This document shows, piece by piece, positions 3,538 through 9,791 of a stretch of 64,000 bases of DNA (the stretch's first letter is position 1; each line of letters starts with the position of its first letter). A model generated the notes under the pieces. That model saw only the letters and a program-made list of their open reading frames with translations. It was not told where the DNA came from and searched no databases. The stretch spans positions 1 to 64,000 of the forward strand of contig NZ_PYGE01000021.1 of assembly GCF_003014555.1 (NCBI RefSeq), read 5' to 3'. A program made the position numbers and the translations under genes. This DNA is from Haloactinopolyspora alba (GTDB lineage Bacteria > Actinomycetota > Actinomycetes > Jiangellales > Jiangellaceae).

Positions 3538-3585
3538 GCCGTGCGTGATGTGATCGCCGTCCGTTCCCCACGCCTGGAGGAGTAC

Positions 3586-5175
3586 GTGTCCGATCAACGA
3601 CGCACGACGCCACTCGACCGCCGCCGATTCCTCACACTCGCCGGGGGTGGCGGGCTCGTCGCCGCCACCTCGACGGTCACCGGATTCGCCACCATCCCGG
3701 CGAACGCCTCCGCCTTCCCCGACGATCCGTTCCGGCTCGGCGTGGCCTCGGGTGACCCGCGCCCGGACGGTGTCGTGCTCTGGACGCGGCTGGCACCGGA
3801 CCCGCTGGCACCCGACGGGCGCGCCGGCATGTCGCCTCGTACCGTCCCGGTCCAGTGGCAGATCGCCGAGGACCCACGGTTCCGCCACGTCGTCCGGGCC
3901 GGCACCGAACGCGCCAGTGCCGACCTGGCGCACTCGGTGCACGCGGAGGTCGACGGGCTGCAGCCGGGCCGGGACTACTGGTACCGCTTCCGCGCCGGCC
4001 GCGAGGTCAGCCCGGTGGGACACACCCGCACCGCACCGGCGGCCGGCGCGGCGCTGTCGTCGATGACGTTCGCCTTCGCCAGCTGCCAGAACTATCCCGC
4101 CGGCTACTTCAACGCCTACCGGCACATGGCGGACGAAGACCTCGACCTCGTGGTCCACCTCGGCGACTACATCTACGAAGGTACCGCTCAGGGCAGCCTC
4201 GGCCGCGGGCACCTTCCCACGGTCGAGTGCCGTTCGCTGGCGGACTACCGGATCCGTTACGGGCAGTACAAGAGCGACCCCGACCTGCAGGCCGCGCACG
4301 CCGCCTTCCCGTGGGTGGTCGTGCTGGACGACCACGAGGTCGACAACAACTGGGCCGACGAGGTCGACGGGCACGGTGCCGGCGGACCGGAGTTCCTCGC
4401 CCGGCGCGCCGCGGCGCTGCAGGCGTACTACGAGAACATGCCGCTGCGCCGCTCCTCGATGCCGAGCGGGTACGACATGCAGCTGTACCGGCGCCTCACC
4501 TACGGCAACCTCGCCCAGCTCAACGTCGTCGACTCCCGCCAGTACCGCGACGACCAGGCTTGCGGGGACGGCCGGAGGTTCGACTGCGAAGAGCGCCTCG
4601 ACCCGAGCCGCACGCTGCTCGGCACCGAGCAGGAGTCGTGGCTGCTGGACGGTCTCGGCGGCTCTCCCACCACGTGGAACGTGATGGCGAACCAGATCTT
4701 CATGATGCAGGCCGACTCGGCGTACGGTCCCGAGCAAGCGTTCGGCATGGACACGTGGGACGGTTACGCCGCGGCCCGGTCCCGGCTGTTCACCGGTATC
4801 CAGGAGCGCGGCGTGCAGAACTTCGTCGTGCTCACCGGGGACGCGCACCGCAGCGTGGCCTCGGATCTCACCGTCGACTTCGACGACCCCGAGTCGCGCG
4901 CCGTGGGCACGGAGTTCCTCGGCACCTCCATCAGCTCCGGCGGCGACGGGCAGGACACCGACGACTGGGGCCGGCGCTGGCTCGCGGAGAATCCGCACAT
5001 GAAGTTCCACAACGTCCAGCGCGGATACGCCAGGTGCGTGGTCACGCAGGACGAATGGCGCACCGACTACCGCGTCGTTCCGTACGTGACCGAGCGCGGC
5101 GCCCCGATCAGGACCCGCGCCAGCGTCTACGTCGAGGCCGGCCGAGCCGGCATCCAGGACGTGTCGGAGGGCTGA
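3586..5175 (+). CDS. phoD: PhoD-family alkaline phosphatase, Tat-exported
   Basis: The 529-residue product has a twin-arginine signal (LDRRRFLTLAGG) followed by a hydrophobic stretch ending near ANASA. A PhoD N-terminal domain (FRLGVASGDPRPDGVVLWTR) and the metallophosphatase core come next: FASCQNYPAGYFNAY, HLGDYIYEG, LDDHEVDNNW (about residue 247) and LTGDAHRS (about 418). PhoD enzymes hydrolyse phosphomono- and diesters outside the cell using Ca and Fe. The GTG at 3586 is chosen because GGAGGAG precedes it by about 5 bases; an in-frame GTG at 3541 would put extra residues before the Tat signal. The 3' end overlaps the convergent MOSC gene by 49 bases. Confidence 0.93.
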   Translation: MSDQRRTTPLDRRRFLTLAGGGGLVAATSTVTGFATIPANASAFPDDPFRLGVASGDPRPDGVVLWTRLAPDPLAPDGRAGMSPRTVPVQWQIAEDPRFRHVVRAGTERASADLAHSVHAEVDGLQPGRDYWYRFRAGREVSPVGHTRTAPAAGAALSSMTFAFASCQNYPAGYFNAYRHMADEDLDLVVHLGDYIYEGTAQGSLGRGHLPTVECRSLADYRIRYGQYKSDPDLQAAHAAFPWVVVLDDHEVDNNWADEVDGHGAGGPEFLARRAAALQAYYENMPLRRSSMPSGYDMQLYRRLTYGNLAQLNVVDSRQYRDDQACGDGRRFDCEERLDPSRTLLGTEQESWLLDGLGGSPTTWNVMANQIFMMQADSAYGPEQAFGMDTWDGYAAARSRLFTGIQERGVQNFVVLTGDAHRSVASDLTVDFDDPESRAVGTEFLGTSISSGGDGQDTDDWGRRWLAENPHMKFHNVQRGYARCVVTQDEWRTDYRVVPYVTERGAPIRTRASVYVEAGRAGIQDVSEG

Positions 5176-5924
5176 GCGAGCGCGACCTCGGCACCGACCG
5201 TGACCCGCCCGGCGTTCACCACGTCGCCCTGCACGCCGAAGGCGATCTCGCCGGCGCGGGTCCGGTCGGCGGCCAGCGCGGCCAGGACACGATGGTCGCG
5301 GCACCCCGCTCCGGGCTCGCGGTCGACGACGGCGCAGCGCGGCAGCGCGCCGCGGACGGTCACGACGGCCGGCCCGACCCGGAGCTGCACGCCGACCCAC
5401 GCGTCCTCGCAGAACGGCGGCCGGCCCGGCGTGTCCACGACCAGTGTCGGCCGGAACCGTGCCCCGTCCTCGTCCGGCGCTCCGGTACGCCGGGCGAGCT
5501 CGGCCAGCGACGACGTGGTCACCAGCGAGACCGGTCCGGCCCAGATCACGGCTCCCGGCTCCCGCCGGCGGCACAGCCGGACCTCGCGTCCGAGGTAGCG
5601 GCTCAGCAACGCCGACCACGGCCCGTCGACGACGTTCAGGCCGACGCGGCGCCCCCAGTAGTCGCCGGTGACGGGGCCGGCCTCGGCCACCCCGCCGGTG
5701 ACGGTGCCGATCGGGGTGTGCACGGTCAGTGACGGCGGGGCCCAGTCGGCGCGGCACGCCAGCAGTGCCGGGTTCTCGGCGGTGCGCGCCACCCGGCCGG
5801 TGGCGGTCTCGAACAGGCAGAACACCCGGTCGTCCGGCACCCCGTCGACCGTCAGCGCGACGTCGCGGCGCGGCACGTGTGCCATGCCTTTCACCGGCGT
5901 CGTCGCGATCCGCACCACGCGCAT
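5127..5924 (-). CDS. MOSC-domain protein
   Basis: The 265-residue protein begins with an MOSC N-terminal beta-barrel (VVRIATTPVKGMAHVPR, VPDDRVFCLFE). It continues with a MOSC domain containing the conserved cysteine in GALPRCAVVDRE and a C-terminal GVQGDVVNAGRVTVGAEV. MOSC proteins handle sulfur or reducible N-oxygen groups on a molybdenum cofactor (as in MOCS3-sulfurase C-termini and mARC/YcbX). The ATG at 5924 lies 35 bases downstream of the ecfT stop and has GGGGAGAA upstream, so it may be the last gene of the bioY operon. The link to biotin is inferred from position only. Confidence 0.85.
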   Translation of the reverse strand: MRVVRIATTPVKGMAHVPRRDVALTVDGVPDDRVFCLFETATGRVARTAENPALLACRADWAPPSLTVHTPIGTVTGGVAEAGPVTGDYWGRRVGLNVVDGPWSALLSRYLGREVRLCRRREPGAVIWAGPVSLVTTSSLAELARRTGAPDEDGARFRPTLVVDTPGRPPFCEDAWVGVQLRVGPAVVTVRGALPRCAVVDREPGAGCRDHRVLAALAADRTRAGEIAFGVQGDVVNAGRVTVGAEVALAQPSDTSWMPARPAST

Positions 5925-5959
5925 CCGTCGTTCTCCCCGTCCGTCGTCCCGTCCGTCGT

Positions 5960-6565
5960 TCAGTCGTCCAGCCCGCGCGCCTGCAGCGCCTCGCCGAGCG
6001 CGTCCGCCTGGCGCAACACACCGACGACCAGCGGGACGGCGAACGCGCGGATGCTGCGTTCGCGGCCACGGGCACGTTGTGCGTCGCGGACGCGGCCGGC
6101 GATACCGGCGACGACCGGCACGCTGCGGATCGCCAACGACAGCAGCAGTGACACCCGCCGCGGGTCCACGCCGACCCGGCGCAGCGGCGACATGCCACGT
6201 TCGAGGGCACCCATCAGCTCACTCATCCGCGTCGTCAGCGTCACCAGCCCGGCCAGCGCGACCGCCAGCACGATCCGCGCCGTCAGCGACACCGCGGACC
6301 CGGCGTCGGTGATCAGCAACTGGACCACCAGCAGCACCGGCACGAACCAGCGCAGCGGCCGCACCTGCGCCCACGCCGCGGCCGGCCGCACCCGGGCCAG
6401 CGCGTACATCGCGGCCACCCCGGCGGCGGCGACCCCGACGGACCACGGCTCCCGAGCCAGCAGCAGGGCGGTGCACGCGAGCGCCAGCCCGGCCAACTTG
6501 CCGCCGGCCGGGGCACGATGCAGCGGCGACGTCCCCGCGACGTACGCGCCGGTGATCATGCTCAC
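5960..6565 (-). CDS. ECF transporter transmembrane (T) component, EcfT/BioN type
   Basis: This protein of about 201 residues has four or five hydrophobic segments and a cytoplasmic coupling region with the two Ala-Arg-Gly-type signatures of T components: RARGRERS and LQARGLDD. T components couple an S component (here BioY, same operon) to EcfA ATPases for vitamin import. No EcfA/BioM ATPase is encoded nearby, so a shared ATPase or solitary BioY function is implied. The GTG at 6565 overlaps the upstream stop as GTGA; an ATG two codons later is an alternative. Confidence 0.82.
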   Translation of the reverse strand: MSMITGAYVAGTSPLHRAPAGGKLAGLALACTALLLAREPWSVGVAAAGVAAMYALARVRPAAAWAQVRPLRWFVPVLLVVQLLITDAGSAVSLTARIVLAVALAGLVTLTTRMSELMGALERGMSPLRRVGVDPRRVSLLLSLAIRSVPVVAGIAGRVRDAQRARGRERSIRAFAVPLVVGVLRQADALGEALQARGLDD

Positions 6566-7725
6566 CGGACCACCTCGAACACCGCGGCCACGCCCATGCC
6601 GCCGCCGACGGCGGCCGTCGCCAGGCCCAGCGTCCCGGCGGCCGCGCCGTCGCGCACCAGCCGGCTGAACAGCCGTACGACGACGACCGCGCCGGTGGCA
6701 CCCCACGGATGCCCCAGCGCCAGGGCGCCGCCGTCGGCGCACACCACACCCGCGTCGACCTCCAGCGGGTCGAGACCCAGCGCGTCCGTCACCGCCAGCA
6801 CCTGCCCGGCGAACGCCTCGACGATCTCGACCGCGGCCAGGTCGCACACGTCCGCGCCGGCCCGGTCCAGCACCCGGCGCACGGCATCGACGGGCCCCCA
6901 GCCGGGCAGCCGCGGGTCGCAGCCGGTGACACTGCCCGCGACCAGGCGCAGTCCGGGCCGTCCGGCGCGGGCCGACTCGGGCACCACGGCCACCGCGGCG
7001 GCCCCGTCACTGTTCGCGCACGAGTTCCCGGCCGTCACCGTGCCGTCCGGGACGAACGCGGCGGGCATCCGGGCCAGCACCGACATCGACAGCCGGCGCG
7101 GGCGGTCGTCGTGCTCGACCTCGCCGACGGGGACGGTCTCGGCGTCGAACCTCCCCTGCTCACGCGCCCGCAGCGCCTTCGCGTGGCTCGCCTGCGCATA
7201 GCGGTCCTGACGTTGTCGCCCGACCCCGCACGAGCCGGCCAGGCGGTCGGCCGCGGCGCCCATGTCCGGGTCGCCGAACTCCGGCGGCGCGAACGGCGCC
7301 CGCTCGTACGGCTCGTCGCCGGCGGCTGAGCGCCGGACCCGCAGCGGCGCGGTCGACGCGCTCTCCGCCCCGCCCGCCAGGACCAGCCCGGCGTCCCCGC
7401 CGCGCACGTGATCTGCGGCGTGCAGCACGGCGGCGAGGCCGCTGCCGCACTGGCGGTCCACCGTCACCCCCGGCACGCCCACCCCGAGGCCGGCCGACAG
7501 CGCCGCGACCCGGGCCACGTTTCCGCCCGGTCCGGTGCAGTTGCCCAGGACCACGTCGTCCACCGGCCCGAGCCCGTCCGCGTCGTCGGCCACCGCCGTC
7601 AGGGCCGTCGCCGCCAGCCGGTCGACGGCGACGGTGCCGAACGCCCGCCCGGTCGTCGCGATCGGCGTGCGCCGCGCGGCGACCACCACCGCGGCGTCCG
7701 GTCGCGCGGGGACGGCGGCGCTCAC
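6562..7725 (-). CDS. Thiolase-superfamily protein with altered catalytic residues
   Basis: The 387-residue product spans the whole thiolase fold. The nucleophile is kept (VDRQCGSGL, Cys93), as is the GHP histidine (GGALALGHPWGATG, His339). Two usual residues are missing. The conserved C-[IVL]-GGGMG near the C-terminus reads AVGGGMG with Ala372 in place of the acid/base cysteine, and the NEAFA motif reads VEAFAGQ. Ordinary reversible Claisen or thiolytic chemistry is therefore doubtful. Bacillus YhfS is a thiolase-family gene in a comparable bioY cluster. The start GTG at 7725 overlaps the ligase stop (GTGA), and ecfT overlaps the end the same way, indicating translational coupling. Confidence 0.85.
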   Translation of the reverse strand: MSAAVPARPDAAVVVAARRTPIATTGRAFGTVAVDRLAATALTAVADDADGLGPVDDVVLGNCTGPGGNVARVAALSAGLGVGVPGVTVDRQCGSGLAAVLHAADHVRGGDAGLVLAGGAESASTAPLRVRRSAAGDEPYERAPFAPPEFGDPDMGAAADRLAGSCGVGRQRQDRYAQASHAKALRAREQGRFDAETVPVGEVEHDDRPRRLSMSVLARMPAAFVPDGTVTAGNSCANSDGAAAVAVVPESARAGRPGLRLVAGSVTGCDPRLPGWGPVDAVRRVLDRAGADVCDLAAVEIVEAFAGQVLAVTDALGLDPLEVDAGVVCADGGALALGHPWGATGAVVVVRLFSRLVRDGAAAGTLGLATAAVGGGMGVAAVFEVVR

Positions 7726-9152
7726 GACCACGGCCGCACGTCGAGGGTGCCGGCCGCCAGCGCGTGCCCGATCGCGGTGCGCGCGGGCTTGCCCGACGGC
7801 GTCCGCGGCAGCGAGCCGACCGCCACCCAGCGCCGCGGGCGCTGCGCGGGCGCGAGCCCTCGCCGGGCCGCCGCTTCAAGCGCCGCACGCGGGGCGGCGG
7901 GCCCGTCGTCCCGCGTGCGGTGCTCGACCACCGCGGTCACCACCGCGCCCAGCCGCTCGTGCCGGGTGCCGACCACGACGACGTCACGCACGCCCGGGAC
8001 CTGCGACAGCACCGCTTCGACGTCCTCCGGGACGACGGTGGCCGCGCCCGTCAGCACGGCGCCGTCGGCACGCCCGCGTAGCCGCAGCGGCGGTCCCGGG
8101 TCGGCGAGGTCACCGACGCTCGCCCAGCCGTTCTCGTCCCACCGCAGCGGGCCAGGCGCACCCGCGAGGTAACCGTGCGCGAGCCACGGCGAGCGGACCC
8201 AGAGCTCGCCGGTGCCGTCGCCGTCGGCCCCGGAGCGCTGGCGCACGTCGATCCGCACACCGGGGAACGGCCGGAGCCCGGTGCCGTCGGTGTCCACGGC
8301 GACGAACGAGAGCTCGGCGGCGCCGTAGTACGCGAGCACGTCGACGCCCGCCGCGGCGGCGCGCTCGCGGAGCCCGTCCGGCAGCGCTGCGCCGCCCACG
8401 ACGGCGGTGCGCAGCCGGGTCTGGTCACCGGCGGCGATCCGGCCGACCACCGCGTCCAGCGCGTGCGGCACCAGGTGCGCCACGTCGACCCCGGGCAGGC
8501 ACGCGGCGACGGCGCTGTCCGACCAGTCCGGGGCGAGCTGCAGCGTCGCCCCGACGGCCAGGGTGTGCAGCGCGGCGAACGCGGTCAGGGACGTGGCCGG
8601 CGAGCCGGGCACGAGCACGGTGTCGGCGGGCGTGATGCCGGTCAGCGCCGAGACGGCGTCGTAGCTGTCCACCCAGGAGGCCGCCGAGCGCACGACCGCC
8701 CGCGGCCGCCCGCTGCTGCCGGAGGTGAACCCCGCCCACGCGGCCTCCGCTGACGCGGCGTCGCCGTGCGCGTCCCACGCATGCTCGCCGGCCGGTTCGA
8801 TCGACGTGGCGGCGCCACGGACCCGCGCCGCAGGGGCCAGCGCGTCGACGACCTCCTCGTGCGTTGCCGGTTCGCACACCAGCGGCACGACACCGACCAG
8901 GTCCGCGGCGACGACCGCCGTCAGCGCCTCGACCGGGTCCGCGGAACCGATCGCGACCACGTCGCCGGCCCTCCCGCCGGCGGGGGTGAGCCGGCGTCCG
9001 CGCACCGGCAGGCCGGCCGCGCGCCACGCCGCCGCGGCGTCGGTCACGTCCCCGGCCAGTTCGCCGTAGCTGCGGACGCTCCCGCCGCAGCGCACCGCGA
9101 TCCGCTCAGGTGTGCGTGCGGCGTGGTCGAGAAGCCTGCGAGCGATCGGCAT
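7722..9152 (-). CDS. AMP-dependent acyl-CoA synthetase/ligase
   Basis: The 476-residue ANL-superfamily enzyme has the expected core motifs in order: A3 GFTSGSSGRPRAV, A5 YYGAAELSFVA, A7 SVGDLAD, A8 LRGRADGAVLTGA, and A10 LPRTPSGKPAR with the catalytic lysine. It would activate a carboxylic acid as acyl-AMP and transfer it to CoA; the substrate is not readable. The protein is short for a fatty-acyl-CoA ligase. In Bacillus the acyl-CoA ligase YhfT sits between bioY-like yhfU and thiolase-like yhfS under BirA control, the same gene content as here. A biotin- or pimelate-related acyl substrate is an inference. It starts 10 bases after the bioY stop. Confidence 0.85.
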   Translation of the reverse strand: MPIARRLLDHAARTPERIAVRCGGSVRSYGELAGDVTDAAAAWRAAGLPVRGRRLTPAGGRAGDVVAIGSADPVEALTAVVAADLVGVVPLVCEPATHEEVVDALAPAARVRGAATSIEPAGEHAWDAHGDAASAEAAWAGFTSGSSGRPRAVVRSAASWVDSYDAVSALTGITPADTVLVPGSPATSLTAFAALHTLAVGATLQLAPDWSDSAVAACLPGVDVAHLVPHALDAVVGRIAAGDQTRLRTAVVGGAALPDGLRERAAAAGVDVLAYYGAAELSFVAVDTDGTGLRPFPGVRIDVRQRSGADGDGTGELWVRSPWLAHGYLAGAPGPLRWDENGWASVGDLADPGPPLRLRGRADGAVLTGAATVVPEDVEAVLSQVPGVRDVVVVGTRHERLGAVVTAVVEHRTRDDGPAAPRAALEAAARRGLAPAQRPRRWVAVGSLPRTPSGKPARTAIGHALAAGTLDVRPWS

Positions 9153-9161
9153 CGACGCGGC

Positions 9162-9791
9162 TCACCCCTCGCCCGGCGCGGGCGGCCCGTCCGCCGCCGC
9201 GACCCGGCGCGCTCCCGGAGCGGCGGCCGGGTACGCACGCTGGGTGCCGGTGGTCACGACCGCGGCGAACACCGCCTTGGCCGCGTCACCCGGCAGGAAC
9301 GCGGCCGAGATCAGCATCGTCTCGCCGAGCGGAACCCCCGTGACGAACGACTGGACCGGCACCCCGATGACCAGGACCACCGCGGAGCCGGTCAGACAGG
9401 CGCCCAGCACCCACGGCAGCGCGGGCCGCCGGCCGGCGCGCTCGACGAGCCAGCCCACGACCGCCGCCGCGGCCACCCAGCCGGCCAGGTAGCCCACCGA
9501 CGGGCCCGCGAAGACGCCGAGGCCGCCGCGGCCGCCTGCCAACAGCGGCAACCCGGTCGCGACCAGGGCCAGCAGGACCAGCACGGCCAGCGCGCCGCGC
9601 CGCGCCCCCAGGATGGCCCCGCACAGCAGAATGCCCATGGACTGCAGCGTCACCGGTACCGCGTTGCCGAACAGCGCGAACGACCCGGGCACGCCGAGCA
9701 CGGCGATCAGGCCGGCGAACACCGCGACCCGGGACATGTCCGCGGCCGACAGCCGGCTCCGGTCCGCGAGACGTCGGCCCGGTCGTGCCAT
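9162..9791 (-). CDS. bioY: BioY, biotin-specific S component of an ECF transporter
   Basis: The 209-residue membrane protein has the BioY signature: GNAVPVTLQSMGILLCGAI, GLGVFAGPSVGYLAGW and, toward the end, FLPGDAAKAVFAA. It has about six transmembrane segments. BioY binds biotin and imports it together with an EcfT and ATPases, or alone at high ligand. It is the promoter-proximal gene of a minus-strand operon with ligase, thiolase-like protein and ecfT. GGAGG lies about 7 bases before the ATG at 9791. No canonical BirA operator or TetR-type BioQ site is seen upstream; instead there is a 16-bp direct repeat. Confidence 0.92.
   Translation of the reverse strand: MARPGRRLADRSRLSAADMSRVAVFAGLIAVLGVPGSFALFGNAVPVTLQSMGILLCGAILGARRGALAVLVLLALVATGLPLLAGGRGGLGVFAGPSVGYLAGWVAAAAVVGWLVERAGRRPALPWVLGACLTGSAVVLVIGVPVQSFVTGVPLGETMLISAAFLPGDAAKAVFAAVVTTGTQRAYPAAAPGARRVAAADGPPAPGEG

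Follow-up and report, generated by a model that had tools for sequence, protein, structure and literature searches.

The window, a 64,000-nucleotide stretch of Haloactinopolyspora alba DNA, contains a minus-strand operon whose five genes encode, in order, BioY, an AMP-forming ligase, a thiolase-fold protein, EcfT, and a MOSC protein:

9162..9791, minus strand: BioY, the substrate-binding S component of an ECF-type importer for biotin (PF02632, E 3.5e-33)
7722..9152, minus strand: AMP-forming acyl-CoA ligase, YhfT-like (PF00501 and PF13193)
6562..7731, minus strand: thiolase-fold protein, YhfS-like, with a likely start at GTG 7725 (PF00108 and PF02803)
6610..6612, minus strand: Ala codon at the position of the second catalytic Cys (Cys378 of the Z. 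ramigera thiolase), located by alignment
5960..6565, minus strand: EcfT (T component), overlapping the thiolase stop (PF02361, E 2.8e-18)
5127..5924, minus strand: MOSC-domain protein, the last gene of the operon (PF03473/PF03476)

The initial annotation described tightly packed genes with GTGA overlaps. The genes are indeed closely packed, with overlaps at two of their four junctions: at the ligase/thiolase boundary the thiolase GTG at 7725 lies on the ligase stop, and a second GTGA joins thiolase and EcfT. Short gaps separate BioY from the ligase (9 bp) and EcfT from the MOSC gene (35 bp). The MOSC gene occupies the same place in Phytoactinopolyspora (L011) and at L159, L160, and L153, and adjoins EcfT in several relatives from the same family. 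Its 3' end overlaps tail-to-tail by 49 bp (window 5127-5175) with a plus-strand ORF (3541-5175) whose product resembles a PhoD-type phosphatase.

A BioY gene, an AMP-forming ligase gene, and a thiolase-like gene stand together here, as in a yhfUTS-type operon. The best NCBIfam models for the ligase and thiolase were PRK07638 (169.6 bits; cut-off 518) and PRK06690 (304 bits; cut-off 498), which we take to be YhfT and YhfS, respectively. These best matches bear out the relationship to Bacillus subtilis yhfU-yhfT-yhfS proposed from the sequence at the outset; since neither score reaches its equivalog cut-off, the operon is classified as a yhfUTS relative and not as an equivalog. A Paenibacillus thiolase from an operon with a BirA box also falls below the PRK06690 cut-off (457 bits). 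The ligase retains the adenylation motifs and SGK lysine, as do 92 of 93 homologues. Like the window operon, B. subtilis yhfU-yhfT-yhfS and Staphylococcus aureus yhfS-yhfT combine BioY with an acyl-CoA ligase and a thiolase family member; besides its lower scores, the window operon differs in its thiolase, where Ala takes the place of Gly and Val that of Asn, and in including EcfT and MOSC genes. The family as a whole corresponds to yhfT-yhfS, the BirA targets of these two species. A search of an open-access collection, which takes in few subscription journals, found no function for yhfT or yhfS, and it appears that none has been assigned to the ligase and thiolase before. Seven Nocardia/Rhodococcus operons (L020, L021, L022, L023, L026, L028, and L039) have a second AMP-forming ligase after EcfT (e.g., L021:7325-8779), and their first ligase ORF is unusually short (~373 aa).

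The only PDB match of the window BioY was L. lactis BioY (4dve, E 4.8e-20), with which it shares a PGDxxKA motif. The S and T components of an ECF biotin transporter are encoded together, as BioY and EcfT are in BioMNY (EcfA-EcfT-BioY), but in this organism EcfA lies outside the operon on another contig. The expectation that import would depend on an unlinked ATPase agreed with a genome search, which returned one clear EcfA ortholog (G000:C7:116322-116987). It shares 62% identity with the EcfA encoded in the Nonomuraea operon and matches at E 9.5e-84, versus 1.4e-28 for the next ATPase. This ortholog (L157:6317-7063) is far from any EcfT gene; by eye, its neighbors are priA-like and ABC-F ATPase-like. 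EcfT is present and EcfA absent in the Phytoactinopolyspora operon as well, and several same-family relatives have this EcfA-less order, some with the MOSC gene last; in most other actinobacterial operons, EcfA sits between the thiolase and EcfT. The genome has two EcfT-type genes, one being that of the operon. The other (G000:C12:128101-130196; L133) lies next to a long ORF that encodes two ATPase domains, and the pair is probably another ECF transporter module.

Catalysis by the Z. ramigera thiolase uses Cys89 as nucleophile, an oxyanion hole made of Asn316 and His348, and Cys378 as the base to which the substrate loses its proton (PMC3406046). Translation and alignment confirmed the catalytic changes first noticed in the window protein: Cys93 and His339 are kept, Val302 gives VEAFA in place of NEAFA, and Ala372 (AVGGG) replaces the C-terminal catalytic Cys (residues 95, 341, 304, and 374, respectively, when numbering starts at the GTG further upstream, 7731). 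The protein has the Cys and His expected of a thiolase (acetyl-CoA acyltransferase) and lacks the second catalytic Cys, which lies in the C-terminal CxG motif and which two other thiolases from the same genome retain. Relatives were sampled by similarity to the window thiolase, with 80 loci fetched from bacterial genomes. In an alignment of all the material, 132 sequences, a few of which represent one genome fetched twice and from which B. subtilis YhfS itself was left out, the nucleophilic Cys and the GHP His are invariant (132/132). The second Cys is replaced by Ala, Gly, or Ser in ~113 ligase-linked sequences from several phyla and kept in 19 unlinked relatives. Gly is found in Bacillota, Alphaproteobacteria, and Streptomyces, and Ala or Ser in most Actinomycetota. 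Every bioY-linked copy examined carries one of these replacements. Within the family of the window organism, 19 of 22 genomes carry the thiolase, with Ala in those aligned, so the alanine is not unique to this sequence; a sequencing error or gene decay was ruled out by conservation of the change among relatives. In a quick unrooted tree, the sequences that keep the Cys form a single clade with full support. This topology would allow the second Cys to have been lost only once, although a tree of this kind is not proof.

The NEAF Asn is also replaced (by Val or Thr) in most Actinomycetota, including the window protein. The linked set has conserved residues of its own, namely GPGG (67-70), Asp92, Gln94, Arg144, Arg353, and an aromatic residue after GHP; the invariant Arg144 and Arg353 could accommodate an acidic substrate end. 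The AlphaFold2 model of the thiolase (pLDDT 95.3) most closely resembles ordinary thiolases (TM 0.86-0.90), which accounted for all of the best 50 folds listed. Pfam thiolase domains dominate, and ketoacyl-synt matches only at E 1.8e-5, so the protein does not belong to the ketoacyl synthase (KAS) subfamily. Compared with Z. ramigera PhaA, FadA, and PcaF, it shares the fold, nucleophilic Cys, and GHP His but lacks the base Cys and the NEAF Asn, and it has the aromatic residue after GHP and the GPGG and VDRQC motifs.

By analogy with the characterized enzyme, loss of the base should leave acylation of the nucleophilic Cys intact but make a protein poorly suited to acetyl-CoA condensation or thiolysis. 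Because the Cys is lost across the whole bioY-linked set, these ordinary reactions are unlikely, in line with the nonstandard chemistry that the initial annotation had anticipated. Ketoacyl synthases need no such base, as decarboxylation of a malonyl thioester drives their reaction. From the missing base and this precedent we infer a KAS-like step for the thiolase-fold protein, less securely in most Actinomycetota, the window organism included, where the Asn is also replaced.

BioY is encoded in the same stretch at 67 of the 80 loci, mostly in the order BioY-ligase-thiolase, and the linkage spans Actinomycetota, Bacillota, and Alphaproteobacteria; at some Arthrobacter-type loci, BioY-EcfA-EcfT lies on the opposite strand. 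In most actinobacterial operons, BioY, ligase, thiolase, and Ecf genes make up the full set, with no reductase or dehydratase, and the operon is rare in the Actinomycetota sample (~6/396 genomes). Many Bacillota operons add two dehydratase-type proteins (FAS1_DH_region and MaoC) and a short-chain reductase (SDR) whose best models are FabG, and Paenibacillus operons add a protein whose best model is FabK (enoyl-ACP reductase), all scoring below equivalog cut-offs. Four Paenibacillus loci (L071, L121, L122, and L126) carry, in one run, BioY, ligase, thiolase, both dehydratases, the FabG-like SDR, EcfA, EcfA', EcfT, and the FabK-like protein; other Paenibacillus operons lack BioY at the locus and keep the ligase, thiolase, dehydratases, reductase, and FabK-like protein. 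It is fairly well supported that the Bacillota genes together make up a single cycle of reductive two-carbon elongation. The L128 and L129 loci have ligase, thiolase, and SDR genes without a clear BirA box, with a ~575-aa amidohydrolase-like protein (e.g., L129:2670-4397) encoded between EcfT and the ligase.

Operators were searched for in the Bacillota operons, with up to 3 mismatches allowed in 16 positions. BirA-type operators were found upstream of 26 of 34 operons, versus 0.78 expected from resampled sequence, and most Bacillota operons without BioY carry one too; none was found in Paenibacillus L120, L122, and L123 or in L128-L130. In an actinobacterium such as the window organism, a BirA box would not be expected. 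For B. subtilis BirA, binding to the yhfU operator requires both biotin and ATP (PMC4016012), and S. aureus BirA with biotin represses yhfS-yhfT (PMC6391492), so the genes are switched on when biotin is scarce. The predicted Bacillota elongation cycle would accordingly lie under biotin control.

Biotin synthesis genes were scored in 50 carrier genomes, mostly unannotated assemblies of unstated completeness. bioB exceeded its curated cut-off in 24 and bioA in 15, all of the latter within the bioB carriers, leaving 26 genomes without bioB and 35 without bioA above cut-off. Neither gene exceeded its cut-off in the window genome (100% complete), and its family lacks bioB throughout (0/22 genomes). 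Presence and absence across all Actinomycetota is uninformative given the rarity of the operon, and the comparison was made instead in 148 Paenibacillaceae genomes, where 2 of the 15 operon carriers had bioB, compared with 74 of the 133 other genomes (Fisher p 0.0021, uncorrected for shared ancestry). The two carriers with bioB are those containing L128 and L129 (G534 and G509). bioF was dropped as a marker because related oxoamine synthases score too near it. Nine carriers (G022, G027, G028, G033, G040, G043, G045, G046, and G048) have bioB but no bioA above cut-off, as if dethiobiotin could be used but not made; a bioA variant scoring below the cut-off is also possible. By known chemistry, genomes without bioB could convert to biotin only compounds that already bear the thiophane ring.

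Five features can be read from the sequences themselves: the operon, the residue pattern, the reductive-cycle genes, the BirA boxes, and the missing bioB. An elongation cycle that is encoded beside a biotin importer, is switched on at biotin shortage, and often occurs where bioB is missing finds its simplest explanation in the rebuilding of biotin whose side chain has been shortened. We tentatively propose, at somewhat less than even confidence, that the operon serves to import such shortened biotin, activate it with CoA, and elongate it in a KAS-like manner. BioY-EcfT, with EcfA encoded elsewhere, would import a biotin-like carboxylic acid, which the ligase would convert to its CoA thioester. 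The thiolase-fold protein would take the acyl group onto Cys93 and, without a base, condense it with a malonyl thioester in a decarboxylation-driven, KAS-like reaction. Ketoreductase, dehydratase, and enoyl reductase would complete the cycle and lengthen the side chain by two carbons; these reductive steps would be performed by enzymes of the same operon in Bacillota and would be drawn from general fatty acid synthesis in the window organism. The likeliest substrate would be bisnorbiotin, perhaps tetranorbiotin, and the product biotin. The malonyl extender, the direction, and the substrate are the parts of this proposal that we infer. Bisnorbiotin is a common natural catabolite, present in human serum at 21-591 pmol/l versus 140-356 pmol/l for biotin (PMC9106636), and the same open-access collection yielded no description of its microbial salvage. 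BioZ, a condensing enzyme, performs a single two-carbon elongation of a biotin precursor (PMC8024396). The proposed reaction would resemble it as one decarboxylative two-carbon elongation feeding biotin metabolism, but BioZ is a KASIII-type enzyme with a Cys-His-Asn triad, acts on glutaryl-CoA, and needs bioB downstream (PMC8024396).

Several observations count against salvage. bioB is present in 24 of the 50 carriers, and BioY is missing from some Paenibacillus operons; in most Actinomycetota, including the window organism, the NEAF Asn is lost and the operon has no reductase or dehydratase. The invariant Arg144 and Arg353, if they do accommodate an acidic substrate end, also weigh against it, and would favor a route to pimelate in which the ligase activates a short diacid (e.g., glutarate) and the thiolase-like protein joins it with a malonyl unit to give a pimeloyl thioester. 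BioZ provides a precedent for such a step (PMC8024396), and 15 of the 50 carriers have both bioA and bioB. Pimelate supply, one of the two roles initially suggested, cannot be general when bioB is missing from 26 of the 50 carriers and all 22 genomes of the family and bioA exceeds its cut-off in so few; it also leaves the link to BioY unexplained, and we regard it as improbable.

The main rival is a bypass for biotin starvation, in which acetyl-CoA-based, malonyl-independent elongation of ordinary acyl chains, together with fatty acid scavenging, would sustain lipid synthesis when the biotin-dependent acetyl-CoA carboxylase fails, with BioY merely co-regulated. It would be consistent with BirA control of the operons, the thiolase fold, the complete reductive cycle, and the frequent occurrence in genomes without bioB. 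We nevertheless consider it unlikely, if the strongest contender, since the Cys required for acetyl-CoA condensation is missing in every linked copy and BioY, ligase, and thiolase are also tightly linked in Actinomycetota and Alphaproteobacteria, where BirA is not known to act as regulator. Acyl transfer without lengthening is a rather unlikely alternative: the ligase would form biotinyl-CoA (or another vitamer-CoA), and the thiolase-like Cys would pass the acyl group to an acceptor, trapping or unmasking biotin. A Cys-His pair without a base should suffice for this, judging from the thiolase mechanism (PMC3406046), and most actinobacterial operons are correspondingly short, but the dehydratases, ketoreductase, and FabK-like reductase of Bacillota would be left unexplained. 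Catabolism of biotin through side-chain β-oxidation is very improbable. The ligase, MaoC-type dehydratase, SDR, and thiolase fold are β-oxidation types too, yet biotin represses the genes, which would be on when it is scarce; Paenibacillus carries an enoyl reductase-like gene, and the Cys needed for thiolysis is missing.

Salvage of shortened biotin would have consequences beyond the window organism. Many bacteria, often ones without the capacity to make biotin, may possess a dedicated pathway by which the shortened vitamin is imported and rebuilt through a thiolase turned KAS-like, and this may be the role of yhfT-yhfS in B. subtilis and S. aureus, a wider claim that we advance with still more reserve. 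These genes have long stood in lists of biotin regulon members with no function attached. A testable hypothesis now emerges from three observations: the thiolase base is consistently lost, the reductive-cycle genes share the operon, and bioB is missing from about half of the carriers sampled. If true, it would add a route of vitamin salvage and a natural use of the thiolase fold, both of them new, and would change how genomes are read for biotin auxotrophy and which biotin metabolites in soil and host fluids count as usable vitamin.
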